Shown: in pieces, positions 4,881 through 32,836 of the stretch | How positions within the stretch are numbered: position 1 is the stretch's first letter | Layout of the letters: each line of letters opens with the position of its first letter | Origin: Peptococcaceae bacterium | GTDB taxonomy: Bacteria > Bacillota > Desulfotomaculia > Desulfotomaculales > JACDOK01 | Assembly (NCBI GenBank): GCA_017656185.1 | Contig: JACDOK010000022.1 | Coordinates: 1-32,836, forward strand | DNA: 32,836 nucleotides | Reading direction: 5' to 3' | The notes under the pieces: generated by a model | Database searches by the model: none | What the model was told of the DNA's origin: nothing | The model's input: only the letters and a program-made list of their open reading frames with translations | Position numbers and translations under genes: made by a program

Positions 4881-5030
4881 AGTGGGGACACGGTAGAGAT
4901 ACGGTAGAGATACGGTAGAGATACAGTGGAGATACAGTAGAGACACGGTAGAGATACGGTAGAGGTACAGTGGAGATACGATAGAGATACAGTGGAGACA
5001 CGGTGGAGATACAGTAGAGACACGGTGGAG
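4881..5030 (+). repeat. 11-bp minisatellite array between fliP and fliQ
   Basis: There are 13.6 head-to-tail units of 11 bp, consensus RGTRGAGAYAC (for example GGTAGAGATAC). Units differ almost only by transitions at positions 1, 4 and 9. The same family occurs in the opposite orientation at 21158-21201 and 29325-29584. All three frames stay open on the complementary strand, which creates spurious ORFs rich in TVSPLYLYRIS; these are not genes. Confidence 0.95.
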
Positions 5031-21002: not shown

Positions 21003-21011
21003 GTTTTGTAA

Positions 21012-21142
21012 TGGGACAGGATTAACGGGATTCCATTGGAATTTAGACAGGATAAACAGGATTAAAAATAGACAGAAGGATTTATAGGATAAGACAGAAA
21101 AATTAATTTAGACAGGATGAACAGGATCAACAGGACGAACAG
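21012..21142 (+). repeat. Degenerate GACAGGATTAACAGGATT repeats downstream of bpsA
   Basis: Six or more partial copies of GACAGGAT(TAACAGGAT) follow each other (21014-21030, 21044-21064, 21070-21090, 21111-21142). They run into a short 11-bp minisatellite array at 21158-21201. Confidence 0.8.
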
Positions 21143-21157
21143 TATGGATAGATCTAC

Positions 21158-21201
21158 TATGTCACCACCGTATCTCTACCGTGTCTCCACTGTATCACAG
21201 C
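21158..21201 (+). repeat. Short 11-bp minisatellite merging into a hairpin linker
   Basis: Four units: TATGTCACCAC, CGTATCTCTAC, CGTGTCTCCAC, TGTATCACAGC. The last one equals the 9-bp linker (GTATCACAG) of the hairpin-chain family and is followed by the hairpin CGCCCGAAGGGCG, which lies in the 3' end of the next gene. Confidence 0.85.
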
Positions 21202-21764
21202 GCCCGAAGGGCGCGTATTACCGCCTCATAAATCTCCGGCCATGTCGCCGCCCTTCTTATCAACGGGTGCTCAACATTCCGATTATACGGCGCATCCACC
21301 AGAACCACAGGGATCCCTGCTTCCGCCGCCTCCCTGGCCGTATCGGGGTTGTCTTCAACGATGGCCGCTGCGTCTTGCTCCCGGCAGGTCTGTATCTTGC
21401 CGCGATGCCCCAGCATAATCAGCTCGTCATAAACTATACCGTGTTTTTTAAGCCAGCTTTCGGTATCCTGCCGGTATTTCTCCGAACGGGCCGTGATAAG
21501 TATTACTTTTGCCAGTTTCCGCAGTTTGGCTGCGTACTCCTTCGCGCCGGACACCGGCGCCGGTTTGCCTATCAAAAGCCTTTCCTTGTCCGCCAAGAAC
21601 TGGGCCAGCTGGTTCTTGTTTATGCCGTATACGCGGCAGATATCATACGTAGTAACATCGTCTGCCGTGAGATTATGTCCAAAATAGGCATTCAGCTCTT
21701 CCAGCAAAGCAGGCAGGCTGTCCGCAATCACCCCGTCAATATCAATCGCAATCGACTTCCGCAT
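21195..21764 (-). CDS. HAD-family 5'(3')-deoxyribonucleotidase-like phosphatase (NT5C type)
   Basis: A 189-residue HAD phosphatase. Motif I is IDIDGVIADS (DxD nucleophile pair near residue 8), motif II is ILITARS, Lys in the KHGI region, and motif IV is IVEDNPD. The NT5C-type cap (YFGHNLTADDVTTYDICRVY) follows motif I. It probably dephosphorylates nucleotides or a related small substrate; the exact substrate is unknown. ATG 21764 is preferred, with AGAGG 6 bases upstream; a TTG six codons earlier lacks a site. The last codons (encoding VIRALRAL) and stop lie inside a repeat hairpin (CGCCCGAAGGGCG), so the C-terminus has been shaped by the repeat. The only gene in this part on the minus strand. 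Confidence 0.85.
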   Translation of the reverse strand: MRKSIAIDIDGVIADSLPALLEELNAYFGHNLTADDVTTYDICRVYGINKNQLAQFLADKERLLIGKPAPVSGAKEYAAKLRKLAKVILITARSEKYRQDTESWLKKHGIVYDELIMLGHRGKIQTCREQDAAAIVEDNPDTAREAAEAGIPVVLVDAPYNRNVEHPLIRRAATWPEIYEAVIRALRAL

Positions 21765-26927: not shown

Positions 26928-26978
26928 TTCAGCGAATGCAGTAAGCATTATCACAGGCGCTCAAGCGCCGTATCACAG

Positions 26979-27067
26979 CCCAGCACTAGAAGTTTTCCGT
27001 GATCTTTATGGTTTTTCAACGTTACTTTGATGCTGCTATCTATCAGTAATTACCCCTGAGTGCTGGG
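26979..27067 (+). repeat. ~100-bp inverted-repeat-bounded element, copy 1
   Basis: Begins CCCAGCACT and ends CTGAGTGCTGGG, which are complementary ends. It lacks 11 bases (CAGTGAACAAT) present after the left end in copies 2 and 3. The interior (AGAAGTTTTCCGTGATCTTT onward) is otherwise identical to copy 2 at 27699-27798. Both ends are flanked by GTATCACAG linkers. Confidence 0.9.
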
Positions 27068-27109
27068 CGTATCACAGCGACCGAAGGGAAGCGAGAAATG
27101 TAATCGCTT

Positions 27110-27567: not shown

Positions 27568-27698
27568 GTATTACAACGGCTTTGCCGCGTATCTCAGCAA
27601 CCGCAAGGAGCGAAGAATGTCGTATCTCAGGGCCGCAGGCCCGTATCACAGCCCAGCTTATGCTGGGCGTATCACAGGCACGAAGTGCCGTATCTCAG
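27568..27698 (+). repeat. Chain of 9-bp linkers alternating with variable hairpins
   Basis: Linkers GTATCTCAG (27589, 27622, 27690) and GTATCACAG (27643, 27669) separate short palindromes of different sequence: CGGC/GCCG, GGGCC-GCA-GGCCC, CCCAGC-TTAT-GCTGGG and GGCAC-GAA-GTGCC. Arms differ from unit to unit, yet each pairs with its partner. Confidence 0.92.
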
Positions 27699-27798
27699 CC
27701 CAGCACTCAGTGAACAATAGAAGTTTTCCGTGATCTTTATGGTTTTTCAACGTTACTTTGATGCTGCTATCTATCAGTAATTACCCCTGAGTGCTGGG
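27699..27798 (+). repeat. ~100-bp inverted-repeat-bounded element, copy 2
   Basis: Ends CCCAGCACTCAG and CTGAGTGCTGGG are perfect 12-bp complements. The interior matches copy 1 and, less closely, copy 3. No coding sequence is inside. Confidence 0.92.
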
Positions 27799-27829
27799 CG
27801 AATCACAGCGACCGAAGGGAGCGAAAACT

Positions 27830-28045
27830 ATGCTCTTCGGCTTCGGCTTCAAAAACAAAACCGTCAAAGAACTCCGCAAAAACCAGGGCCTCACCGCCAA
27901 GGAACTGGCCCAAAAACTGAAACTCGACACCATCGACATCCTCAAATACGACCACACCAAACTCAAAGACGTCCCGGAACCCCTCCAAACCAAACTCATT
28001 CCCATCCTCCGCGGCGACTACATGGACAAAATCCCCTGGCTGTAG
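27830..28045 (+). CDS. Small helix-turn-helix protein (71 residues)
   Basis: MLFGFGFKNK, then a short helix-turn-helix (VKELRKNQGLTAKELAQKLK, then LDTIDILKYDH) and a basic C-terminal part ending DKIPWL. It resembles XRE-type minimal DNA-binding proteins; the target is unknown. ATG 27830 is chosen because GGGAG (27817-27821) lies 8 bases upstream. That ribosome site is the right arm of a repeat hairpin, so the repeat supplies the translation signal. Codons are strikingly C-ended (CTC, ATC, ACC, AAC), like the ligase gene at 24362, which argues that it is a true, native gene. An upstream GTG at 27791 lies in the repeat and is unlikely. Confidence 0.7.
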   Translation: MLFGFGFKNKTVKELRKNQGLTAKELAQKLKLDTIDILKYDHTKLKDVPEPLQTKLIPILRGDYMDKIPWL

Positions 28046-28115: not shown

Positions 28116-28272
28116 AGGAGCACATCTTGATGCGCCCGTAAGCCCAAAGGAATGCCTCAGAAGTGTAGGAGCGGTTCTCCGCGTCTGCCCGCCAAGGACC
28201 CCAAACCAAATGCTTTCAATAAACGTAGGGGAGGGTTTGCAACCCTCCCGGACCCCAAAGAAATACCCTCAA
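28116..28272 (+). repeat. Three tandem hairpin cassettes (GTAGG...CCCCAAAGGAATGCC family)
   Basis: Units at 28116-28164, 28167-28220 and 28225-28272. Each starts GTAGG, has a variable palindrome (for example GGGAGGGTT-TGC-AACCCTCCC at 28229-28249) and ends in a conserved CCCAAA-rich tail. Confidence 0.8.
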
Positions 28273-28274
28273 TC

Positions 28275-28332
28275 CAACGTCGAACGTCGAACGTTGAACC
28301 TTGAACGTCGAACGATTATCGTCGAACCTCGA
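28275..28332 (+). repeat. 7-bp repeat array (GAACGTC/GAACGTT family)
   Basis: Heptamers CAACGTC, GAACGTC, GAACGTT, GAACCTT, GAACGTC, then an interrupted pair ending GAACCTCGAC; same family as 5030-5162. Confidence 0.85.
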
Positions 28333-28353
28333 CAGCGAAGCGCAGCGAGCGAA

Positions 28354-28980
28354 TCACAGCGTTTGCATCAACTCCCTCTGCTGCCGCAAAAAATATTCCT
28401 TAACATCTTCCCACTTCACCGGTTTCAACATCAAGGGGTTAACTTCTCTCTCGGCATCTTCAAAGTAACCGATACTCCTAATCAAATGATACTTGCTGTA
28501 TGCCACACGCTTGTATTTCTTTTCAAACAACCCCATTAAGCTTTTAAGGTCAATTATTTCTTGGGTAATAAAATACAGGTCAATAAAGTCTTTTTTACTG
28601 CCCCGGCTTGAAATAGCCGTTATTTTCATCAGAGCAATGTCTCTTAGATCCGCAAGTTGACATCCCATAAAGCTTTCAGTGGGGTACAGTAAAGGGTACT
28701 TATAAAGTAAAAAGCTGAGCTTAACTCCATTTAATAACCCGTGTACGGTGCCGTGGTCCTCCCTGGAAAGGGCAAAAGATCCCAATTCACTCAATCGTTG
28801 TATAAGGTCAAAAGTATTAAAGTCGTCCCGGCTGAAAAAATCAAAATCCTCGGAGATACGGTGCCCTAAATATAAAGCTGCCGCCGTCCCACCTGCAAGA
28901 TAAAAGTTTTGCAAAATGCCGTGGCGGGCTAGTAGTTCCAGAAGACGTTTCCGGTCTTTGGAGATGACTTCTTCAAACAA
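28354..28980 (-). CDS. AbiEii/AbiGii-type nucleotidyltransferase (toxin-like)
   Basis: A 208-residue protein of the AbiEii nucleotidyltransferase family. It has the signature NFYLAGGTAAALYLGHRISE then DFDFFSRDDF (GG at 30-31, DFDFF Asp45/Asp47) and DLRDIALMKITAISSRGSKK DFID, the distal Lys/Asp motif. Relatives are toxins of type IV toxin-antitoxin or abortive-infection systems that modify tRNA with NTPs. TTG 28980 is preferred because GGGAGG lies 7 bases upstream; a TTG 13 codons earlier has none. It overlaps the DUF6922 gene by about 50 bases, so the pair is cotranscribed. The C-terminus meets the repeat block at 28333-28358. Confidence 0.82.
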   Translation of the reverse strand: MFEEVISKDRKRLLELLARHGILQNFYLAGGTAAALYLGHRISEDFDFFSRDDFNTFDLIQRLSELGSFALSREDHGTVHGLLNGVKLSFLLYKYPLLYPTESFMGCQLADLRDIALMKITAISSRGSKKDFIDLYFITQEIIDLKSLMGLFEKKYKRVAYSKYHLIRSIGYFEDAEREVNPLMLKPVKWEDVKEYFLRQQRELMQTL

Positions 28981-29267: not shown

Positions 29268-29324
29268 AAACCAGGAAACAATAAAAAGGAAACTGCTCAC
29301 TGCTGGCTGCTTACTGCTTTCTGA

Positions 29325-29584
29325 GGTATCTATCGTATCACCATTGTGTCACCACTGTATCACCACCGTGTCTCCACTATGTCACCACTGTGTCTCCACG
29401 TATCTCTACCGTGTCCCCACCGTATCTCTACCGTATCACCACCGTATCCCCACCGTATCCCCACCGTGTCTCCACGTATCTCCACCGTATCTCTACTATG
29501 TCACTACCGTGTCTCTACTGTATCTCTACCGTGTCACCACCGTGTCTCCACTGTGTCTCTACCGTATCCCCACCGTATCTCGCC
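29325..29584 (+). repeat. 11-bp minisatellite array, about 24 units
   Basis: Consensus YGTRTCNCYAC (for example CGTATCTCTAC, CGTGTCTCCAC, TGTATCACCAC). Two units are 10 bp long (29400-29409, 29476-29485). It is the complementary orientation of the array at 4881-5030. The gap 29268-29608 holds only this array and the unrecognised 29268-29324; long ORFs in it are repeat artefacts. Confidence 0.95.
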
Positions 29585-29608
29585 GGCGCAGTACGCCGTA
29601 ACATATCC

Positions 29609-29660: not shown

Positions 29661-29695
29661 AGAAAAGATGGCTATAGCTTATGGGAGGTCTGGCC

Positions 29696-30058
29696 GTGCT
29701 GACTCCCCAGCAGAAACAAAGGTATGTCTCCGGTTGGTTAAAGAGAGAAAAAGAAAGAGAGGCCCGGCTGAAACAGCAGCACCAGCTGGCATTGAAAAAG
29801 GCCTTTGAAATTGCTCAGATGCTAAAGGCAAAATACGGAGTAAAGAAAGTTGTGCTGTTCGGGTCAGTTGTTAACGGCAAGTATTGGGCACATTCGGACA
29901 TCGACATCGCCGTTCACGGCATGGACGAAGACCGCTATTTGGATATGGCCTGGGAAGCTTCCCAGATCGCTCTGCCTTTCAAGGTGGATCTGCTGCCTTT
30001 CGAGAAAGTTAGCAAGGCTTTGCAGAGAAAAATTACAGATGAAGGGCTGGTAATATAG
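29696..30058 (+). CDS. mntA: MNT-domain minimal nucleotidyltransferase (MntA-type antitoxin)
   Basis: A 120-residue protein with a basic helical N-terminus and a pol-beta type nucleotidyltransferase core: VVLFGSVVNGKYWAHSDIDI (GSxxxG at 56-61, DxD at 68-70) and a third acidic strand FKVDLLPFEK. In MntA-HepT systems this enzyme AMPylates and so disables the HepT RNase. GTG 29696 is the better start: GGGAGG (29683-29688) is 7-8 bases upstream; an ATG at 29681 overlaps that site. It is followed after 0 bases by the hepT start. Confidence 0.8.
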   Translation: MLTPQQKQRYVSGWLKREKEREARLKQQHQLALKKAFEIAQMLKAKYGVKKVVLFGSVVNGKYWAHSDIDIAVHGMDEDRYLDMAWEASQIALPFKVDLLPFEKVSKALQRKITDEGLVI

Positions 30059-30124
30059 ATGATCCAGAAATTGCTGGTACTTCGTGATGAGATCGAAGAA
30101 GAGCTGGCAAATATCGCCCAGCTT
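30059..30124 (+). pseudogene. hepT: 5' fragment of hepT-like toxin gene, split by TnpB element
   Basis: ATG directly after the mntA stop encodes MIQKLLVLRDEIEEELANIA-QL, the first helix of a HepT-like (HEPN) protein. Then the reading frame enters the mobile element and ends at 30208. The rest of the gene resumes at 31509. Joining codon CTT (30122-30124) to ACA (31509) gives one intact reading frame, so the gene was whole before insertion. Confidence 0.75.
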
Positions 30125-30167
30125 AACTCTCCCGCCGGGAAGTCCCCGTCCGTGAGGGCGGGGATGA

Positions 30168-30272
30168 GGGGCGGGACTGGCGATCATCGAAACACTTGTT
30201 CCGTCTAATTTTCTTCGGTACGATATAGGCATAAAACGGCAACTAAGTAAAGGTGAAGCCGGAAAATGGTAA
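30168..30272 (+). pseudogene. Unrecognised C-terminal protein fragment upstream of TnpB
   Basis: An open frame after a stop at 30165 encodes about 34 residues ending LAIIETLVPSNFLRYDIGIK RQLSKGEAGKW and stops at TAA 30270-30272, overlapping the TnpB ATG (ATGGTAA). The composition looks protein-like, but I do not recognise it. It may be the tail of a gene carried with the element. Confidence 0.35.
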
Positions 30273-31396
30273 GCAATACGTCCCATCCCAGAGCCATCCG
30301 CAACTACAAATTTCGCATTTACCCCAATAAAGCACAGGAACGCAAACTCTTACGCTGGCTTGAGACCTGCCGCCGGATATACAATACCGCCCTGGCGCAG
30401 CGCAGAGACGCCTGGGAACGGGAAAAACGCTCCATCACGCGGGTAGAACAGCAGGCCTGGCTTAAAGAAGCCAAAAAAGAAAACGATTGCTACAGAGAAG
30501 TTCATTCCCAGGTGGCCCAGGAAGTATTATTCCGGGTAGAAAAAGCCTTCGCCGGGTTTTTTCGCCGGGTAAAGAACGGTGAAACGCCCGGTTATCCCCG
30601 GTTCAAAGGCAAAGGCCGGTATAAATCTATCACCTACACCCAGTTCGGTGAGGGTAAGGGTGCTTCCTGGCACAACGATAAGCTCAAACTTTCTAAGATT
30701 GGCCTGGTCAAGATAAAACGGCACCGGGAAATACCCGGTAAAATAAAGACCGTCACCATCAAGAAGGATGCCAGCGGCAGGTGGTACGCTGTCTTTGCTG
30801 TTGAAATAGAACTTGAGCAAGTAAAGACTCATCCCGGTTCTGCTGTGGGGCTGGATGTTAGGCTGGAAAAATTCGCGGCGCTTTCGGACGGCAGCATTAT
30901 TGAGAATCCCCAGTATCTCCGGAACACGGAGAAGAAAATCAAACATGCCCAGCGTCATCTTTCCCGTAAACAGAAAGGCTCCCGCAACCGGGCAAAAGCC
31001 AGGCTCAAGCTAGCCAAACTGCACGCGAAAGTCAGGAACCAGCGCCGGGATTTTCTGCATAAAGAAGCCCGTAAACTGGTCAGTAATTACAGTTTTATTG
31101 CCGTAGAAAAGCTGAATGTAAAAGGCATGGTACAAAATCACCACCTGGCTGAAAGCATTTCCGATGCGAGCTGGAGTGAGTTTCTTGCCATGCTCTGCTA
31201 CAAAGCGGCGGAGGCTGGTAGCAGGGTAATAAAGGTAAACCCCTCCGGTACTACGCAGGAATGTTCAAGTTGCGGGAACAAAGTACCCAAAGGTTTGTCG
31301 GTTCGGGTACATAAATGCCCTCATTGCGGGCTTGTGTTAGACCGGGATGTAAACGCAGCCCGAAATATACTAAGGAAAGCCCTGGAAGTGGCCTGA
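30266..31396 (+). CDS. tnpB: TnpB RNA-guided nuclease/OrfB
   Basis: A 376-residue TnpB, the ancestor-type of Cas12. The N-terminal helix-turn-helix-like domain (YKFRIYPNKAQERKLLRWLE) is followed by a RuvC fold. Catalytic acids are Asp197 (AVGLDVRLEKFAALSDG), Glu281 (IAVEKLNVKGM) and Asp361 (LDRDVNAARNI). The zinc finger has C333-SSC336 and C351-PHC354. All are intact, so it is likely functional. Gly of the usual GLDxG motif is Arg199. ATG 30266 with AAAGGTG about 10 bases upstream overlaps the stop of an upstream fragment. It cuts DNA guided by the omega RNA at its own 3' end and helps keep the element in place. Confidence 0.95.
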   Translation: MVSNTSHPRAIRNYKFRIYPNKAQERKLLRWLETCRRIYNTALAQRRDAWEREKRSITRVEQQAWLKEAKKENDCYREVHSQVAQEVLFRVEKAFAGFFRRVKNGETPGYPRFKGKGRYKSITYTQFGEGKGASWHNDKLKLSKIGLVKIKRHREIPGKIKTVTIKKDASGRWYAVFAVEIELEQVKTHPGSAVGLDVRLEKFAALSDGSIIENPQYLRNTEKKIKHAQRHLSRKQKGSRNRAKARLKLAKLHAKVRNQRRDFLHKEARKLVSNYSFIAVEKLNVKGMVQNHHLAESISDASWSEFLAMLCYKAAEAGSRVIKVNPSGTTQECSSCGNKVPKGLSVRVHKCPHCGLVLDRDVNAARNILRKALEVA

Positions 31397-31397
31397 T

Positions 31398-31530
31398 AAC
31401 TTCCCTACCGTGGGGACCACGGGAGGTTACGCCTGTTGGAGCGCACCAGTAGGTGCCCGATGAAGCAGGAAGCCCCTTCCTGAGCGTTAGCGAAGGGAGG
31501 GGTAGTTCACAGAAGACTTATGCGGCATAA
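31398..31530 (+). ncRNA. Predicted omega RNA (reRNA) of TnpB with guide from hepT
   Basis: Downstream of tnpB there are typical scaffold hairpins: CCGTGG-GGA-CCACGG (31408-31422), GCACC-AGTA-GGTGC (31443-31456) and the terminal stem CCCCTTCC/GAAGGGAGGGG (31474-31502), then GTAGTTCA(C). By analogy with known TnpB systems, the guide is the ~16-20 nt just past the right end (31509/31511-31530), which is hepT sequence. Confidence 0.55.
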
Positions 31531-31919
31531 AAGAAAGAAGATTGGATCCTGAAATAGAGAAGCGTGTATGTGCTTCTGTTCTTGCTGATTTTTATATGGC
31601 GGTAGAGCGGATTTTTAAACTAATAGCTAAAGAAATAGACGGTGAATTACCCGAAGGAGAAGACTGGCACAAAAAATTACTGCGCCAGATGTCTATAGAA
31701 TTACCGGAAATTCGTCTGCCTGTTATTAATAAGAAGCTTTTTCGCCAACTGGAAGAATACCTCAAGTTCAGACACCTGGTACGCAATATCTACGGTTTCC
31801 AACTGGAATACAAAAGATTTGCTCATCTGGTTGAAAATTTGCCTGCCGTTGCTGCTGATGCGGAACATCAAATAACCACATTTCTGGATGACATGCAGGA
31901 AATAGCAGAAAACTTTTAG
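31509..31919 (+). pseudogene. hepT: 3' part of hepT-like (HEPN/DUF86-type) toxin gene
   Basis: Open frame continuing hepT after the element: TEDLCGIKERRLDPEIEKRV, then ADFYMAVERIFKLIAKEIDG, WHKKLLRQM, and the HEPN-type motif FRHLVRNIYGFQLEYKR (R-x4-6-H-like core). It could be translated alone from TTG 31542 (125 residues), but the first helix is missing and no good ribosome site precedes it, so the toxin is probably disarmed while the antitoxin remains. Its stop is followed in the same frame by the tail of another MNT gene. Confidence 0.75.
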
Positions 31920-32207: not shown

Positions 32208-32277
32208 TGGTCTCCGCGCCCACCCGCGACCCCAAAGGAATGCCCTAACCTCAGTGACCGTATGTCACGAATGACAG

Positions 32278-32376
32278 CCCAGCACTCAGTGAACAGTAAA
32301 AGTTTTTCATGATCTTCCAGTTTTTCAGCATCACTTTAATGCTGCTATCTATCAGTAATTACCCCTGAGTGCTGGG
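32278..32376 (+). repeat. ~100-bp inverted-repeat-bounded element, copy 3
   Basis: Same CCCAGCACTCAG/CTGAGTGCTGGG ends. The left half differs from copy 2 at about a dozen positions, but the right 36 bases (from GCTGCTATCTATCAG) are identical, so the 3' half is under more constraint or was converted. Confidence 0.9.
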
Positions 32377-32497
32377 CGAATGACAGCAGGCGTAGCCTGC
32401 GAATGACAGCGAGCGCTACAAGCGCGAGCGAATGACAGGCGCGCCTGCGCCGTATCACAGGCCCGCAGGGCCGTATCTCAGCGAACGCAGTGAGCGA
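32377..32497 (+). repeat. Second chain of linkers and variable hairpins
   Basis: Linkers GAATGACAG (three times), GTATCACAG and GTATCTCAG alternate with GCAGGC-GTA-GCCTGC, GAGCGCT-ACA-AGCGCGAGC, GGCGC-GCCT-GCGCC, GGCCC-GCA-GGGCC and CGAACGCAGTGAGCG. The first linker joins directly to the end of the inverted-repeat element. Confidence 0.92.
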
Positions 32498-32564: not shown

Positions 32565-32620
32565 GTCTTCCGTTAAGAGCAAACTTGTCCGAAAGGCAAG
32601 GGCGCAAAGCCACGGTTCGG
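32565..32620 (+). ncRNA. Truncated c-di-GMP-I (GEMM) riboswitch-like aptamer
   Basis: GCAAACTTGTCC-GAAA-GGCAAGGGCGCAAAGCCACGG (32579-32616) matches the GEMM-I core: a GCAAAC strand, a stem capped by a GAAA tetraloop, and the near-invariant CGCAAAGCC. The second half of the aptamer (tetraloop receptor stem) is not found; after 32620 the sequence becomes the tail of a four-helix-bundle gene. It is probably a broken riboswitch. Confidence 0.5.
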
Positions 32621-32776
32621 TCAGCTACTGAGGCCCAGTCGCACCTTTACGTCGCCCTCGACCAGGGATATATAAACAAAGCTGGGTTCGACGAGTTATA
32701 TCAACAAGCACAAAAAGTTAAGAGCGTTATATGTGGCTTGATCCGTTACTTGCGTTCTAACCTTAGAAAACCTTGA
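32621..32776 (+). pseudogene. 3' remnant of a second four-helix-bundle (S23-type) gene
   Basis: The open frame encodes TEAQSHLYVALDQGYINKAG, then FDELYQQAQKVKSVICGLIR YLRSN, the last two helices of the four-helix-bundle family (compare the intact gene at 27110). No start codon or helices 1-2. The stop TGA lies in the GAACCTT heptamer array. It is a different subfamily from the intact gene. Confidence 0.7.
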
Positions 32777-32803
32777 ACCTTGAACCTTGAACGTTGAACT
32801 TTG
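32769..32803 (+). repeat. 7-bp repeat array (GAACCTT family) at window end
   Basis: AACCTT, GAACCTT, GAACCTT, GAACGTT, GAACTTT. After it, 32804-32836 shows no recognisable feature. Confidence 0.85.
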
Positions 32804-32836
32804 GTGCGCCACGAGGCTGGTGCGTGGCTGCCGGTG

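Follow-up and report, generated by a model that had tools for sequence, protein, structure and literature searches.

Linker–hairpin arrays with REP-like features in a Peptococcaceae genome

The intergenic regions of this Peptococcaceae genome contain arrays in which a constant linker alternates with short hairpins. We consider these arrays to be a REP-like, non-autonomous palindromic repeat that is both inserted and maintained in the form of a single folded strand of DNA, probably the template for lagging-strand synthesis, and give this reading a probability of about 0.5. That the arrays work like REPs, as a non-autonomous repeat recognised as a folded single strand, is the most economical account, and we infer the mobility of the units, the duplication of linkers and the action on the lagging strand from the sequence pattern. 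The window described here is a stretch of 32,836 nucleotides from a draft genome (2.3 Mb in 82 contigs, 99.9% complete); it contains two long chains, a small chain and single units (Table 1).

Linkers and units of the arrays

The linker G[TA]AT[CG][AT]CAG occurs 17 times in the window, all on the + strand, compared with 1.12 expected and a maximum of 4 in shuffled sequence. An earlier, sequence-only reading had staked its proposal on enrichment of this motif across the genome, and such enrichment is present: there are 156 matches genome-wide to 46 for the reversed control pattern, 63 to 2 for CGTATCWCAG, and 38 to 5 for GAATGACAG. Pairs of GTATCWCAG spaced 8-30 nt apart number 22 in the genome and none in the control. 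Linkers were found where that reading had placed them, in chain 1 (27589-27800), in chain 2 (32269-32473), and at 21192, 26970, 27069 and 28351. Its description of a palindrome after each linker holds at most places, the exceptions being 24007 (inside a gene), 28351 (a hairpin before but none after), and 27598-27621 (no hairpin). The boundary that it drew between a 9-bp linker and the palindrome has moved, as the palindrome runs from the linker's last G to the C before the next linker, and the invariant part comprises 8 nt followed by that G.

A unit thus consists of the 8-nt linker G[TA]AT[CG][AT]CA and a palindrome that opens with G and closes with C immediately before the next linker. Most palindromes measure 13 to 21 nt, their stems spanning 5 to 9 positions and their loops 3 or 4. 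In approximately 0.7 Mb (700 kb) of stretches around matches, a part of the genome chosen largely for holding linkers, a hairpin of 13-21 nt starts exactly at the last G in 54 of 121 strict linkers and at nine other offsets in 0-4; the reversed pattern carries a hairpin in 1 of 11 cases, and its scarcity in these stretches limits its value as a control. All units inside a chain are head to tail, the arrays are intergenic, and their size varies from one to five or more units.

Table 1. Linkers, hairpins and related features of the window.
Positions	Strand	Feature
21192..21214	+	Single unit: linker GTATCACAG and hairpin GCGCCC-GAA-GGGCGC; 11-bp repeats before
26948..27077	+	Small chain: degenerate linker TTATCACAG, hairpin GGCGC-TCAA-GCGCC, linker GTATCACAG, truncated element A (26979-27067), linker GTATCACAG
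27589..27597	+	Linker GTATCTCAG, first of chain 1
27598..27621	+	Non-hairpin spacer with ribosome-binding-site/ATG-like remnant (AAGGAGCGAAGAATG)
27622..27630	+	Linker GTATCTCAG
27630..27642	+	Hairpin GGGCC-GCA-GGCCC
27643..27651	+	Linker GTATCACAG
27651..27668	+	Hairpin GCCCAGC-TTAT-GCTGGGC; outer arms as in element A; identical hairpin at locus L054
27669..27677	+	Linker GTATCACAG
27677..27689	+	Hairpin GGCAC-GAA-GTGCC; identical copy at locus L054
27690..27698	+	Linker GTATCTCAG
27698..27799	+	Long form of element A, G-CCCAGCACTCAG...CTGAGTGCTGGG-C, occupying an inter-linker site as small hairpins do
27800..27808	+	Linker GAATCACAG
27808..27822	+	Hairpin GCGACC-GAA-GGGAGC, tandem G·A; 3' arm Shine-Dalgarno-like for ORF starting at 27830
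28335..28359	+	Hairpin-like GCGAAGCGCAGCGAGC, then linker GAATCACAG; no hairpin downstream of linker
32269..32277	+	Linker GAATGACAG, first of chain 2
32277..32377	+	Long copy of element A, 88% identity with that at 27699
32378..32386	+	Linker GAATGACAG
32386..32400	+	Hairpin GCAGGC-GTA-GCCTGC
32401..32409	+	Linker GAATGACAG
32409..32429	+	Hairpin GC-GA-GCGCT-ACA-AGCGC-GA-GC, tandem G·A
32430..32438	+	Linker GAATGACAG
32438..32451	+	Hairpin GGCGC-GCCT-GCGCC
32452..32460	+	Linker GTATCACAG
32460..32472	+	Hairpin GGCCC-GCA-GGGCC
32473..32481	+	Linker GTATCTCAG
32481..32495	+	Hairpin GC-GA-AC-GCA-GT-GA-GC, tandem G·A

Within chain 1, the spacer without a hairpin may be a trapped former gene start, and the hairpin with arms like those of element A is possibly an internal deletion of that element. 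A c-di-GMP-I riboswitch (32568-32632) lies just past chain 2.

The window contains several other short repeats. Tandem arrays of the 11-bp GTRTCWCYACY are present at 29312-29606, 21153-21190, and 4893-5023 (minus strand), and have GTATCAC in common with the linker; at several loci such arrays run directly into the first linker of an array. There are 51 matches to this motif compared with none in the control, and none in 119 other genomes. There are also 7-bp tandem repeats of the AACGTTGAACCTTG type (28269-28327 and 32769-32813), degenerate 9-bp repeats (21009-21139), and a GTAG-tagged hairpin (GTAGGGGAGGGTTTGCAACCCTCCC; 28225-28249) of a type named REP elsewhere, in a genome in which no REP-associated tyrosine transposase (RAYT) was found.

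Pairing, loops and the strand that probably folds

We identified 59 distinct hairpins located directly at linkers, short, GC-rich, present in many copies and nearly all outside ORFs. They fall into two classes, 40 being paired throughout (G·T allowed) and 19 having G·A/A·G mismatches in tandem at the third and fourth stem positions. The claim that the palindromes differ while their pairing is kept is borne out, as is pairing above that of shuffled sequence, the second point on which the sequence-only reading had rested its case. Among 54 distinct inter-linker spacers, 3.43 of five tested positions are Watson-Crick paired, compared with 1.62 after random reassignment of partners among units (highest value in 2000 shuffles, 2.07), although these shuffles ignore the relatedness of units, which are not all independent because the arms belong to a limited number of families. 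All 65 cells of the 13-nt class are paired, with compensatory change on both sides in four of the five pairs and a covariation score of 0.523, against 0.154 in shuffles that likewise ignore relatedness (reached in 0 of 500) and at most 0.095 when the alignment is slid. In the 15-nt class 80% of cells are paired, and those that are not fall at the G·A (or A·A) positions. Where a single pair departs from Watson-Crick, it is G·T in seven cases and A·C in none (p 0.016); the one C·A listed comes from a hairpin whose stem can also be read as perfect. Identical copies of a hairpin occur at several loci, as do loop variants on the same arms.

The loops distinguish the two strands. GNA or GNNA loops are present in 35 of the 59 hairpins when read on the linker strand, in one of 59 on the complement, and in 41 of 849 (5%) control hairpins (Fisher 2e-26). 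Loops of these types closing on at least two G-C pairs form unusually stable, nuclease-resistant DNA mini-hairpins (PMC4686876). The third base of the GNNA loops is a purine, as in GNRA, in only 4 of 13, and GCCA, GTCA, GCTA, GTTA and GATA are commoner than GNRA tetraloops. Folding energies (ViennaRNA) favour the linker strand under DNA and RNA parameters alike and therefore cannot choose between the two, so that the case for DNA rests on loop type and orientation. The loop rule, together with G·T pairs in the absence of A·C, suggests that it is the linker strand that folds.

Orientation follows GC skew more closely than it follows the genes. The right-hand gene is sense to the array in 16 cases and antisense in 10, and the left-hand gene is divided 15 to 12, both near random. 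With GC skew taken over the surrounding 10-30 kb, 22 of 26 clusters (p 0.0005) and 15 of 18 regions have their linkers on the strand richer in G; ori and ter are unmapped, and gene direction is a partial confounder that few loci separate from skew. The split is 30 to 11 (18 to 8 for regions) in a looser set that includes likely chance matches, 15 to 3 for the linkers on either side of element A, and 72 to 65 at linker-like sites that lack a hairpin. In genomes of the Firmicute type, G is enriched on the leading-sense strand, which serves as lagging-strand template when it is the parent.

On these observations a single folded strand of DNA is more likely than a cruciform, in which neither strand would be distinguished, or a transcribed RNA, the GNNA loops being mostly of types other than GNRA and the orientation following GC skew more than genes. 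The proposal that the hairpin itself is the selected product is supported by the covariation, the strand-specific loops, the G·T pairs without A·C and the kept tandem G·A, but the forms then suggested for it, RNA or cruciform, are less favoured than a folded single DNA strand. We regard it as unlikely that the hairpins are selected as transcribed RNA, within the untranslated region at either end of an mRNA, where they would act on its stability, processing or translation. RNA would account for the covariation and for G·T without A·C as readily as DNA would, the RNA energies favour the linker strand, and at six places a Shine-Dalgarno-like sequence of the next ORF lies within a hairpin unit directly before an ATG (27808-27832, and loci L241, L243 (two), L245 and L257). 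However, apart from these six co-oriented units there is none of the consistent gene orientation of an RNA regulatory element, the tetraloops are mostly not GNRA, no Rfam family matches the arrays, and the number of units per array varies.

Distinctly less likely is template switching during replication, in which a nascent or template strand pairs with itself around a C-GNA-G nucleus and uses one arm as the template for the other, so that arbitrary sequence is turned into new perfect palindromes while the units themselves stay in place. This would explain why the arms are arbitrary, why stable loops are favoured and why strand bias would be linked to replication, but it would remove the G·T pairs and the tandem G·A found in 19 of 59 hairpins, and leaves unexplained the constant linker, the similarity of neighbouring linkers, the exact hairpin copies at several loci and the loop variants on the same arms. 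The related suggestion of the sequence-only reading, that copying makes a new palindrome at each linker, is not needed and fits poorly, as it would erase the tandem G·A that is kept in a third of the hairpins and gives no reason for neighbouring linkers to resemble each other.

Enzyme search and comparison with known repeats

A linked RAYT, which had been put forward as something to look for, was not found: the Y1 transposase family of RAYT and IS200 (PF01797) has no match in the whole genome, while the control gave matches in five of 14 genomes including Escherichia coli. A Y1 gene may lie in a gap of the draft assembly, and more generally the enzyme may be lost, unrecognised or in such a gap. 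No IS110-type transposase was found in the genome; an IS91-type transposase was also not found, but the control for that search was silent and the result is uninformative. An orphan tnpB (30266-31396) is situated between a nucleotidyltransferase gene and a HepT-like gene (29681-31919), apparently splitting a toxin-antitoxin pair, and has no linker at either end.

The arrays appear to be private to this genome. Paired linkers in 149 other genomes amount to one chance-like pair with no hairpin between. A scan of approximately 85,000 species genomes, from which own or near records may be left out, returned 49 stretches, about the number that we estimate for chance, and none of the spacers printed is a perfect palindrome of at least 5 bp. 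IMG/VR, with the same proviso for own or near genomes, gave seven stretches, none with such hairpins, and searches with chain 1 in plasmids and chain 2 in phages gave no match. The G·A hairpin GCGARCGNAGYGAGCG is scattered through the phylum, but not in arrays.

Among known repeats the arrays are most readily compared with REPs, BIMEs and REPINs (GTAG- or CGTC-tagged), which are likewise short GC-rich intergenic hairpins in many copies and clusters, with a fixed tag 5' of the hairpin, a strand-specific structure and some compensatory change in the stem (PMC3733652, PMC8266576, PMC2817692). Unlike REPs, the foot of the units is G[TA]AT[CG][AT]CA rather than GT[AG]G or CGTC, the chains are strictly head to tail, there is a GNA/GNNA loop rule and a tandem G·A class, no RAYT was found, and the stem is not shared, both neighbouring and between-chain hairpins being 0.44-0.48 alike. 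REP dimers are usually inverted and head-to-tail ones rare (PMC3733652). We have not filed the arrays as REPs because they differ in four tested features, these being tag, RAYT, fixed stem and inverted dimers. To call them an undescribed system, as the sequence-only reading did, is nonetheless too strong, and they are better described as a REP-like repeat with unusual features.

The ends of IS200/IS605 elements and their TnpA (IS608, ISDra2) also involve a folded single strand with a 5' tetranucleotide guide beside it, which we count as a likeness, and are known to target the lagging-strand template (PMC6006769), to which the GC-skew bias of the arrays may correspond. However, tnpA was not found, the units are 21-30 nt without cargo, and the nearby orphan tnpB lacks linkers at its ends. 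It is very unlikely, in our view, that the units are true REPs with another tag, left behind by a RAYT/REPtron or IS200/IS605 system that has lost its Y1 transposase or has it hidden in an assembly gap. Such an origin would fit the position of the tag 5' of a short hairpin, the strand-specific structure, the lagging-strand-type bias, the intergenic position and the orphan tnpB, and Group 3 REPs can be small perfect palindromes; against it are the lack of a Y1 match in a 99.9%-complete genome with the control positive in E. coli, the tag, and the usual inversion of REP dimers (PMC3733652) with arms common to a REP family.

Palindromic repeats in Volvox organelles are intergenic hairpins with a preferred short loop (TAAA/TTTA) and proliferate and nest within one another, but differ in being organelle DNA and longer palindromes that share sequence, and, so far as described, without a fixed linker (PMC2670323). 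CRISPR arrays have a constant repeat and non-palindromic foreign spacers, whereas the spacers here are palindromes. Integron attC sites are recognised as a folded single-strand structure, with arm sequence largely free, and occur in arrays. No attC core motifs are seen here, however, and no genes lie between the sites.

Proposed growth of the arrays and its meaning

Adjacent linkers are identical in 33 of 72 cases, compared with 26.5 (p 0.002) when linkers are shuffled within chains and 14.2 when they are shuffled globally, whereas adjacent hairpins are no more alike than random (none of 32 at >=90% similarity; mean 0.439 versus 0.476 permuted). The order of hairpins GGCACGAAGTGCC and GCCCAGCTTATGCTGGGC in the window is reversed at L054 / contig C5. 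Alike linkers beside unlike hairpins argue for insertion with linker duplication and not tandem duplication of whole units, the duplication itself being suggested by the likeness of the linkers. Slippage or unequal crossing-over of linker–hairpin units, followed by divergence under a pairing constraint, would give head-to-tail units and repeated linkers, but is highly improbable when neighbouring hairpins are not alike and neighbouring linkers are.

Element A (CCCAGCACTCAG...CTGAGTGCTGGG) is palindromic and MITE-like, 47 or ~100 nt long, with 156 arm matches in the genome and no match in 111 other genomes of the order. It obeys the G...C rule between linkers, and copies without linkers also occur. 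The long copy in chain 1 is identical to one on contig C6, and because these two long copies are identical the element probably moved recently. Copies outside arrays have no clear target-site duplication; inside arrays the flanking linkers are often identical.

For a REP-like repeat inserted as a folded strand, the preferred reading, new units would insert next to an existing linker, which would be duplicated, while the linker strand is single-stranded and folded as the lagging-strand template. A putative enzyme would read the linker and the folded shape and not the arm sequence, so the arms could drift in a paired way. Element A, which is flanked by these linkers too, would then be a larger cargo moved in the same way, and some units may later have been co-opted as ribosome-binding-site leaders. 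A bolder and rather unlikely possibility is a single-stranded DNA insertion system new to description, in which a non-Y1 enzyme would recognise the constant linker and no more of the mini-hairpin than its shape (a GNA/GNNA loop, with or without tandem G·A). Units could then join head to tail at the same linker almost regardless of arm sequence, like a gene-less integron of hairpins.

If the units come and go, the enzyme that moves them remains to be found. Repeats that keep structure but not arm sequence evade ordinary repeat finders, and would point to shape-only recognition of folded DNA. The loop rule is that of the most stable DNA mini-hairpins known from chemistry, and the arrays may record the folding of single-stranded DNA in a living chromosome.
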